NCBI RefSeq assembly: GCF_010499245.1
Contig: NZ_JAAGOW010000001.1
Coordinates: 4,092,001-4,156,000 of the forward strand
From: Variovorax sp. WS11
Lineage (GTDB): Bacteria > Pseudomonadota > Gammaproteobacteria > Burkholderiales > Burkholderiaceae_C
Length of the DNA stretch: 64,000 nt
Direction: 5' to 3'
Made by a program: the position numbers and the translations under genes. Below, one piece after another: positions 42,460-44,537 of this stretch. The notes below the pieces were generated by a model, which saw nothing but the letters and a program-made list of their open reading frames with translations, was not told the origin of the DNA and ran no database searches. How positions within the stretch are numbered: position 1 is the first letter of the stretch; the number at the start of each line of letters is the position of its first letter.

Positions 42460-43212
42460 TCAAAGGGTCTTCTCGATCAGCGCGCCCTTGAACAGCACCG
42501 GCCCGGTCGGCCCGCGCTCGCTGGGAACGCCGCCCTTGGGCTCGAGGCTGATGGCCAGCGCCGGCACCGAACGCACGTCGGCTTCCTGCGCAGTCAGCCT
42601 GAGCGCCGGGTCGCGGCCCAGCACGCCCAGCGAACGCGGCGCGCCGCCGGGCGGCAGCGCCCACAGCTGCAGCGACTTGTCCTCGCCCTCGCGGTAGCCG
42701 CCGACGCGCTGCAGCACCAGCTGGCGCTTCTTCGGGTCGAAAGTCACGAGCATCGAGGCCGCGGCCTGATCGTCCGACAGCACGGCCACATACTGCACGG
42801 CCGGCGCATTGCGCAGTTGCTCGCTCAGGTTGAGGCCGACGAAGGCGGCCACCACGGTAGCGAGTGCGCCGGCGGCTGCGGCGCTGCGCCACAGCGCGAG
42901 GCTGCGCAGCCAGCCGCCGCGCGCGGGCGTCTCGGGCGGCAGCGTGGTGCGCTGGCGTGCGATGGCTTCCTGCTCCTGCTCGGCGGCGATCAGGTTACGG
43001 ATGCGGGTCCACACGGCCGCATCCGGCACCACCGGCGACTGCAGCTCGGCCATGCTGGCGAGCCGGCTCTGCCAGACCAGCGCGGCGGCCCGCACCGGCG
43101 CCTGCTCGCGCGCCAGGACTTCGAAGCGCCTGCGCGCGCCGCCGCGCAGGGTGCCCAGCGCGTGGCTCGCGGCCAGCATCTCCAGCAGTTCGGGATGGGC
43201 GGAAAGATTCAT
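42460..43212 (-). CDS. RskA-like anti-sigma factor
   Basis: 250-residue single-pass membrane protein. The cytoplasmic N-terminal part (residues 1-100, NLSAHPELLEMLAASHALGTLRGGARRRFE) resembles the anti-sigma domain of RskA but lacks the HxxxCxxC zinc motif. One transmembrane helix lies near residues 108-128 (SAAAAGALATVVAAFVGL). The periplasmic RskA_C domain follows (YVAVLSDDQAAASMLVTF, LQLWALPPGGAPRSLGVL). It should hold the ECF sigma factor encoded 13 bp upstream. ATG 43212 is chosen because the protein then starts at the conserved NLSAHPE. Confidence 0.88.
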   Translation of the reverse strand: MNLSAHPELLEMLAASHALGTLRGGARRRFEVLAREQAPVRAAALVWQSRLASMAELQSPVVPDAAVWTRIRNLIAAEQEQEAIARQRTTLPPETPARGGWLRSLALWRSAAAAGALATVVAAFVGLNLSEQLRNAPAVQYVAVLSDDQAAASMLVTFDPKKRQLVLQRVGGYREGEDKSLQLWALPPGGAPRSLGVLGRDPALRLTAQEADVRSVPALAISLEPKGGVPSERGPTGPVLFKGALIEKTL

Positions 43213-43225
43213 TGCGAAGCTGCCT

Positions 43226-43801
43226 TCACGCCAACTGCTGCATGCAGATGCGCAGCTTGTCCAGCCCACGCCGGATCCAGGTCTTGACCGTGCCCAGCGG
43301 CAGCTTGAGCTGCTCGGCCAGCTCGCCGTGGCTGAGTTCGCGCAGGTAGGCCAGGCTCAGCACCTCGCGCTGCCGGCCCTCGAGCCGGCTCAGGCACTGG
43401 TGCAGGGCGCGGGCCTGCTCGCTGGCATCGGCGGTGTCCATCGGGTTCGCGGCATCGGACTCGAAGGTCTCGGCCATCAGTTCGTCGAATTCCTGGGTGA
43501 GCTGGGCGCGGTCGGCGGTCCGGCGCCGCAGGAAGTCCAGCGAGCGGCTGCGCACGATCAGCCCCAGCCAGGCCATCGGCGGGCTCAGCGTGCTGCGGTA
43601 GTCGCCGGCGACGCGCCAGATGGTGAGGAAGGATTCCTGCAGCACGTCCTCGGCCCATTCGCGCTGGCGCACCACCCGCATCGCCAGGCCGAAGAGCTTG
43701 GGCGAGGTGCGCTCGTAAAGCAGGCGCAGGGCGGTCTCGTCCCGGCGGCCGATGCGGTCGATCAGCGCCATCAGTTCGGCGTCGGGGCTGGCTTCGGGCA
43801 T
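43226..43801 (-). CDS. ECF RNA polymerase sigma factor (SigK-like)
   Basis: 191-residue ECF sigma factor. Region 2 spans about residues 20-90 (LRLLYERTSPKLFGLAMRVV, EDVLQESFLTIWR). Region 4 starts near residue 128 (QCLSRLEGRQREVLSLAYLRELSHGELAEQL, quoted in part, then PLGTVKTWIRRGLDKLR with the recognition helix). The partner is the RskA-like protein downstream. ATG 43801 (MPEASPDAE) is preferred; ATG 43819 is an alternative, and neither has a clear ribosome-binding site. An ECF-type promoter, probably autoregulatory, lies just upstream on the same strand. Confidence 0.92.
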   Translation of the reverse strand: MPEASPDAELMALIDRIGRRDETALRLLYERTSPKLFGLAMRVVRQREWAEDVLQESFLTIWRVAGDYRSTLSPPMAWLGLIVRSRSLDFLRRRTADRAQLTQEFDELMAETFESDAANPMDTADASEQARALHQCLSRLEGRQREVLSLAYLRELSHGELAEQLKLPLGTVKTWIRRGLDKLRICMQQLA

Positions 43802-43837
43802 GCGCGGATTGTGGAGCATCGGTCGTCACACAGGCGA

Positions 43838-43863
43838 TACGGCGCAAGGCGGCCGGCGGATTC
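43838..43863 (-). promoter_or_regulatory. Putative ECF promoter of the sigma factor gene (GAATC-N17-CGTA)
   Basis: Read on the minus strand, GAATC (43863-43859) and CGTA (43841-43838) are separated by exactly 17 bases. Transcription would begin near 43831, 12-30 bases before the sigma start codon depending on which ATG is used. The -35 and -10 words and the spacer match the promoter on the opposite strand, and both -35 elements are set in TGAATCCG. GAAYC...CGT is the general form of ECF-class promoters. Confidence 0.6.
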
Positions 43864-43880
43864 AGGCGCTGCCGATCGCT

Positions 43881-43906
43881 GAATCCGATCGCGCCCCCGC
43901 CGCGTA
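43881..43906 (+). promoter_or_regulatory. Putative ECF promoter of the DUF3455 gene (GAATC-N17-CGTA)
   Basis: GAATC at 43881-43885 and CGTA at 43903-43906 are separated by 17 bases, the mirror of the promoter before the sigma gene. A start near 43913 gives a leader of about 75 bases with AAGGAA at 43977-43982 as ribosome-binding site for the ATG at 43989. Confidence 0.6.
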
Positions 43907-43988: not shown

Positions 43989-44537
43989 ATGACCTTGCGC
44001 AACCTCGGCCTCCTCGCGGCCGCCGCCAGCCTCGCCGCCTGCTCCGGCATGGGCATGAACAAGCCCATGGCGTACTCCCAGGCCAGCCTCCCCGATGCCG
44101 TCAAGGTGCCCGCCGGCCACCGGGTCGCGATGGAGACGGTCGGCGCCGGCGACATCACCTACGAATGCCGCGCCAAGGCCAACGCCCCCGGGCAGCACGA
44201 ATGGGTCTTCGTCGGCCCCGACGCCCGCCTCATGGACCGCGGCGGCAAGCAGGTCGGCAAGTACTACGGCCCGCCGGCCACCTGGGAAAGCATGGACGGC
44301 TCCAAGCTCACGGGCACCCAGGTCGCGGTCGCGCCCAATGGCAGCGCCAACATCCCCTACCAGCTGGTGAAGGCCAACCCGGCCATGGGCAGCGGCGCGA
44401 TGCAGGGCGTGAGCTACATCCAGCGCGTGGCCACCCAGGGCGGGACGGCGCCGGCCATGGCCTGTGGCGCAGACTCGATGGGCCGGAAACAGGTGGTGAA
44501 GTACCAGGCCGACTACATTTTTTATCGAGCGATGTGA
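43989..44537 (+). CDS. DUF3455 domain lipoprotein
   Basis: 182-residue predicted lipoprotein: signal peptide with lipobox LAAC (Cys18) after a short hydrophobic stretch. The DUF3455 region follows (LPDAVKVPAGHRVAMETVGAGDITYEC, quoted in part; HEWVFVGPDARLMD; YYGPPATWESMDGSKLTG; GVSYIQRVATQGGTAP; MGRKQVVKYQADYIFYRA). Two Cys residues (TYECRA and MACGAD) could form a disulfide. The function is unknown. It faces an ECF sigma/anti-sigma pair with a matched promoter, so it is likely a regulon member, perhaps an envelope or oxidative stress protein. Confidence 0.88.
   Translation: MTLRNLGLLAAAASLAACSGMGMNKPMAYSQASLPDAVKVPAGHRVAMETVGAGDITYECRAKANAPGQHEWVFVGPDARLMDRGGKQVGKYYGPPATWESMDGSKLTGTQVAVAPNGSANIPYQLVKANPAMGSGAMQGVSYIQRVATQGGTAPAMACGADSMGRKQVVKYQADYIFYRAM

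Follow-up and report, generated by a model that had tools for sequence, protein, structure and literature searches.

Two genes face away from each other in the window, the stretch of 64,000 nucleotides of Variovorax sp. WS11 DNA analysed here, and the gap of 169 bp between them holds two copies of GAATC-N17-CGTA. The question raised by this locus is whether one ECF sigma factor acts on both genes through these two copies. The genome around the window has 8.49 Mb, and the loci most similar to this one are from Variovorax. The features concerned are as follows.

42460 to 43212, minus strand: anti-sigma factor gene with an RskA_C domain, 250 amino acids (PF10099, E 5.1e-23)
43226 to 43819, minus strand: SigK-like ECF sigma factor gene, 197 amino acids (domain match and alignment)
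43838 to 43863, minus strand: predicted sigma-directed promoter, GAATC at 43863-43859, 17 bases at 43858-43842 and CGTA at 43841-43838
43881 to 43906, plus strand: predicted DUF3455-directed promoter, GAATC at 43881-43885, 17 bases at 43886-43902 and CGTA at 43903-43906
43989 to 44537, plus strand: DUF3455 gene for a putative lipoprotein, 182 amino acids (PF11937, E 1.9e-34)

With a probability of roughly 0.86, our data indicate that the gap carries back-to-back promoters of one SigK-like ECF sigma factor, which belongs to an autoregulated SigK/RskA-like module with DUF3455 as its output. The sigma gene stands first and the anti-sigma gene, which adjoins it, follows on the same strand. The sigma factor was assigned to the ECF class by PF04542 (Sigma70_r2) at residues 34-101 and PF08281 (Sigma70_r4_2) at residues 137-189 of a protein of 197 amino acids, and the anti-sigma factor to the RskA type by its PF10099 match. 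The DUF3455 protein matches PF11937 at 119.8 bits, above the gathering cut-off of 25, and by eye it has a lipobox-like LAAC at residues 15-18. In an alignment of 17 DUF3455 sequences, Cys18, Cys60 and Cys159 are invariant wherever the column is present. For the sigma mRNA, the leader predicted at 43819-43838 has about 12 bases and no clear ribosome-binding site; the real start codon of the sigma gene may be some later ATG.

The coordinates that the earlier note gave for both sites, with their equal spacers of 17 bases, are right to the base, and both -35 words lie within TGAATCCG of the window sequence, as it had claimed. Its proposed search string, TGAATCCG-N14-CGTA, is one base short; N15 is needed, and both sites match with it. 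The two sites point apart, and each is plausibly spaced from its gene. The words are short, with nine fixed bases, so a coincidence had to be weighed. On both strands of the 8.49-Mb genome there are 15 copies of GAATC-N17-CGTA and five of the pattern read backwards. A gap of 169 bp would then hold about 0.0003 sites; two are observed, and the sites are conserved across genera at fixed spacing. Chance, held to be unlikely when the sites were first described, thus has a practically negligible probability.

Conservation in the same gap of relatives had been proposed as a check, and it was examined in 81 ECF loci, the window and the best 80 of 122 ECF relatives, with spacers from 8 to 27 scored in the 220 bp upstream. 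Among these related loci, which are not 81 independent trials, the exact sigma-directed site is found in 72 of 81. In the sigma direction 72 sites have a spacer of 17 and six a spacer of 9, with no others, and in the opposite direction 25 sites have a spacer of 17 and one a spacer of 18. Seven of the nine loci without the exact sigma-directed site have NNATCC-N16-CGTA, and two (L059 and L072) have neither form. DUF3455 is the near divergent neighbour, less than 400 bp from the ECF gene, in 17 of the same 81 loci. All 17 carry both sites with 17-base spacers, so the predicted conservation was borne out, whereas the opposite site with this spacer occurs in only 8 of the 64 other loci.

Several of these eight sites precede genes for other exported proteins. 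A DUF4331-like gene replaces DUF3455 opposite the sigma gene in L045, a cytochrome c gene takes this place in L054, and cytochrome c-like genes (by eye) do so in L069, L076, L077 and L078. In L007 DUF3455 was not found and the site precedes the next gene, and in L014 there is no nearby gene in that direction. The opposite site is absent when the ECF gene has a housekeeping neighbour such as ppnP. Many Variovorax loci (L011-L013, L015, L017, L020-L022, L024-L026 and others) have a conserved small membrane protein gene (MKQIAIV...) opposite the ECF gene, and these loci have no opposite promoter motif.

The GAATC words could also be read as the halves of a palindrome, CGGATTCAG-N13-CTGAATCCG, that serves a repressor or activator as its operator, with CGTA incidental. 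The arms in the window form a perfect 9-base inverted repeat (by eye), and distances of 10-18 bases between the -35 words are common among close relatives. Across the 17 DUF3455-divergent loci, however, the two -35 words are 10, 12, 14, 15, 17, 18, 37 or 55 bases apart, while the distance from GAATC to CGTA is constant at 17. The unit that has been kept is therefore an oriented promoter and not one palindrome, and the operator was rejected on this ground. The sigma-directed site also stands alone in at least 47 of the 72 loci that have it (72 minus the 25 with an opposite site; window and best 80 of 122), and the solitary motif occurs upstream of distant fasciclin genes. Together these observations make an operator very improbable.

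The reading as two promoters of one sigma factor ties the DUF3455 family to that factor, and this tie, which the earlier note had claimed, was followed through the genus. In a survey of PF11937, 61 of 81 genomes had the domain. The 70 match rows reduce to 67 loci, since one locus is shared in each of two pairs of rows and a fragment at a contig end was left out. At 55 of the 67 loci DUF3455 adjoins an ECF gene, recognised by tblastn at E 3e-27 or better. The link is supported and wider than first claimed, and comprises three ECF pairings, each with its own matched promoter. The first pairs DUF3455 with a divergent orthologue of the window's ECF gene, and 18 of 20 loci have GAATC-N17-CGTA (17 of the 19 among L100-L126, and L164); L104 and L123 lack the exact site beside this orthologue. 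In the second, DUF3455 is followed in the same direction by another ECF gene (about 38% identical) and an anti-sigma gene, and CATCC-N17-GTAG is found in 28 of 30 loci. The third consists of a more distant DUF3455 gene and, divergent from it, a third ECF gene (about 42% identical), with CATCC-N16-CGTT in 4 of 5 loci. GAATC-N17-CGTA occurs in none of the 35 loci of the second and third pairings. ATCC-N16 is common to all three promoters and the flanking letters differ, so that the promoter varies together with the ECF partner. Three pairings with their own promoter words at equal spacing form a natural set for finding the ECF residues that select a promoter. A domain of unknown function also becomes a probable regulon member, with a promoter open to testing and a regulator of a known kind. 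A fourth arrangement, in which ECF gene, anti-sigma gene and DUF3455 follow each other in the same direction, was seen in other genera of the family (L227, L231 and L233).

Beyond the genus, a generic form, G[AC]ATCC-N16-[CGT]GT, which was written from the genus loci, was applied to 260 bp upstream of DUF3455 in the family, class and phylum, using the best-scoring matches listed. The count leaves out L208, which is cut, and L209, a second DUF3455 gene of the window's genome with no site and no nearby ECF gene. The form is present in 33 of 43 loci of the same class and in 0 of 10 loci of another class of the phylum, probably Alphaproteobacteria, among the best-scoring matches listed. Spacers of 12 to 20 other than 16 gave at most 5 of the 43 loci, the reversed sequence gave none, and the opposite strand gave 8, several of which are divergent sigma promoters. 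Random 260-bp windows of the same loci contained the form in 6.2% of cases. An ECF gene lies within flanks of about 1.5 kb in 24 of the 43 loci, and the form is present in 21 of these and in 12 of the 19 without a visible ECF gene, so most of the failures (7 of 10) are at loci without one. The second DUF3455 gene of the window's genome lies outside the window (G000:C5:575572-575949; L163, L209). It is distant, with 37% identity, and neither a visible ECF gene nor a promoter of the kind described here is nearby.

The sites might instead be real ECF promoters that serve chiefly another ECF sigma factor, in which case the motif would not define the regulon of the window's sigma. Loci that lack this sigma bear on the question. 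Seven loci with the DUF3455 of the first pairing have no adjoining ECF gene and no close orthologue of the sigma in the genome (E 1e-60); in nine genomes without a close orthologue the best ECF hits are at 3e-33 to 1e-15. A homologue of the GDSL-lipase gene that flanks the module in the window adjoins DUF3455 in six of the seven, and judged by gene order these loci look as if the sigma/anti-sigma pair had been lost. The exact motif is kept in three of them (L114, L115 and L126), and in the other four the -35 word is altered and the spacing unchanged (CAATCC in L101, L103 and L117; TGATCC in L113). The exact site thus precedes DUF3455 in 18 of 20 loci with the sigma and in 3 of 7 without it, and Fisher's test gives 0.02, a value that overstates independence because the loci are related. 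Since the motif is intact in some genomes without the sigma, another sigma factor may read it or the loss may be recent, and these three sites speak against a strict one-to-one match of sigma and motif. Among the loci fetched, the weaker ECF genes of these genomes have no exact GAATC-N17-CGTA upstream.

Fasciclin genes gave a second comparison. Thirty fasciclin loci were found among the 26 genomes of the genus that were searched, and the motif precedes the gene at 16 of 17 loci in genomes with the window's ECF gene and at 3 of 13 in genomes without it. Two of these 13 loci are two domains of one gene, so that the latter figure corresponds to 3 of 12 genes, and two further fasciclin genes of genomes without the sigma fall outside the count. 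Fisher's test on 16 of 17 against 3 of 12 gives 0.0002, again with independence overstated by the relatedness of the loci. All sites have a spacer of 17, although spacers of 15 to 19 were allowed, and several of the proteins concerned begin with a lipobox-like stretch (by eye). When four further genomes and the window's own were scanned, sites outside called genes preceded fasciclin genes among others. The suggestion that the motif could serve to define a regulon is supported by the fasciclin loci of sigma-bearing genomes. Fasciclin genes are absent from the window's own genome, and this part of the regulon therefore rests on relatives.

The intact motif at 3 of 7 DUF3455 loci and 3 of 13 fasciclin loci without a close sigma orthologue would suit another ECF factor, and so would a GAATCC-N16-CGTA site between a ChrR-type ECF locus and a FAD oxidoreductase gene in one relative (L266). 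Autoregulation is the usual pattern for ECF genes, however, and the site lies directly before the window-type sigma gene in 72 of the 81 loci (window and best 80 of 122). The fasciclin sites track the presence of this sigma, and where it is missing the -35 word of the DUF3455 promoter has changed at 4 of 7 loci with the 16-base spacing kept. We therefore regard control mainly by another ECF factor as unlikely. GAATCC-N16-CGT(A) was seen before a FAD oxidoreductase-like gene in L266, where the gene is divergent from the ChrR-type ECF locus, and in L326, near another ECF gene; these sites possibly mark an overlap of two ECF regulons.

Control of further genes by the window's sigma was examined in the scan of the whole genome that had been proposed. 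The 15 sites include genic ones, and those kept lie outside called genes and at most 200 bp before a gene. They precede genes for the ECF factor, DUF3455, DUF4331, a SnoaL-like protein, a LysR-type protein (by eye), a DUF4148-like protein and one membrane protein. Among these genes only those for the ECF factor and DUF3455 count as well supported, and DUF4331 and the DUF4148-like gene rank as candidates. The DUF4331 gene has the motif in the window's genome (C5:67189; L099, L311) and in two relatives, and of 9 DUF4331 loci in sigma-bearing genomes, including one truncated by a contig end, 3 have a site, which weakly supports its membership of the regulon. The motif upstream of a small exported DUF4148-like protein gene was seen in the window's own genome (L091, C3:322828) and in a relative (L189, genome G063).

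This kind of system is already known. The best PDB match of the window's sigma is SigK of Mycobacterium tuberculosis (4nqw, E 9.8e-23), and in that alignment Cys142 and Cys192 correspond to Cys133 and Cys183 of SigK, a numbering that follows our own reading of the offset of the crystallised construct. Both cysteines are kept in 81 of 81 orthologues (window and best 80 of 122) and in 55 of 55 ECF factors of the three DUF3455 pairings. The NCBIfam SigK model NF007228 gave 129.3 bits, below its curated cut-off of 226, and the protein is therefore called SigK-like and not SigK. PMC7509140 describes an mpt83-sigK-rskA cassette in Actinobacteria and Yersinia, with a SigK site before mpt83, and a SigK that in M. 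tuberculosis controls its own expression from the Rv0449c promoter. It also gives the two cysteines of SigK a role and describes the signal of SigK-RskA as still unknown. In PMC7509140 and PMC10540498 the cassette is also placed in Yersinia enterocolitica, and according to the latter source the SigK regulon is small and includes the FAS1 proteins MPB70 and MPB83.

The window's module resembles mycobacterial SigK-RskA in its ECF factor with two conserved cysteines, the adjoining RskA-type anti-sigma gene, the predicted autoregulation and a small predicted regulon that includes an exported lipoprotein, and relatives of the window's genome add putative fasciclin-domain targets. Unlike in the mpt83-sigK-rskA cassette, the gene order is divergent and the lipoprotein beside the sigma gene has a DUF3455 domain in place of fasciclin, and this neighbour is what sets the module apart. 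The promoter, GAATCC-N16-CGTA, may be a further difference. The sigma also resembles the groups ECF18/ECF19, which are named in PMC7509140, in SigK-like sequence, cysteines and RskA_C anti-sigma factor. RpoE of Rhodobacter (2q1z) is its second PDB match, and the RpoE-ChrR or ECF11 type is similarly an autoregulated ECF system with divergent targets, but the window has an RskA-like anti-sigma factor where that type has a ChrR-type cupin protein. Through the three ECF-DUF3455 pairings, a genus of Gram-negative soil bacteria is connected with the SigK-RskA-fasciclin system.

We infer that transcription proceeds from both sites and that it is the window's sigma that reads them. The membrane anti-sigma factor of RskA type would bind and restrain the sigma at rest, and an envelope signal, possibly redox because both SigK cysteines are kept, would free it. 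The freed sigma would then raise its own operon through the minus-strand site, which would make the sigma/anti-sigma operon autoregulated, and expression of the DUF3455 lipoprotein through the plus-strand site. A few more exported proteins would follow, including fasciclin proteins like MPT70/MPT83 in relatives that have such genes. DUF3455 is very likely an output of this signalling system, and it would take the position that the fasciclin lipoprotein MPT83 has in the mpt83-sigK-rskA cassette.

The predicted structure of the DUF3455 protein is beta-rich, with a mean pLDDT of 75 and residues 1-27 below 50, and indicates a beta barrel with middling confidence. Foldseek matched this model to nothing in the PDB at E 0.001 or better, and phmmer with the sequence found no PDB relative below E 0.35. 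The best VIA-align rows are Diels-Alderases of the AbyU/PloI4 type (Z 10.1, rmsd 3.8, 119 residues aligned), and dirigent proteins are listed at Z 8.1; the fasciclin fold is not among the rows listed, which decides nothing. Diels-Alderase and dirigent barrels bind small hydrophobic molecules, and the model suggests that DUF3455 may likewise be a ligand-binding barrel. Cys60 and Cys159 could form a disulfide, given that both are invariant. A more far-reaching and rather doubtful conjecture is that DUF3455 is a secreted, disulfide-bearing barrel that serves as a working part of SigK/RskA-like envelope sensors beyond being their output. It would have been recruited with at least three ECF factors, its promoter shifting with each sigma, and a feedback loop might arise if it bound an oxidised or hydrophobic ligand and signalled this to the anti-sigma factor.

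The open-licence literature searched yielded no account of DUF3455 as a recurrent ECF partner with partner-dependent promoters, no link between DUF4331 and a sigma factor, and no fasciclin gene with an anti-sigma factor and promoter in Proteobacteria. The link between DUF3455 and ECF factors may already have been published elsewhere, work on ECF classification being one possible place. According to PMC7725335, two DUF3455 genes of Delftia on soybean roots rose about 20-fold from day 2 to day 7, which suggests that a condition for induction may be at hand.
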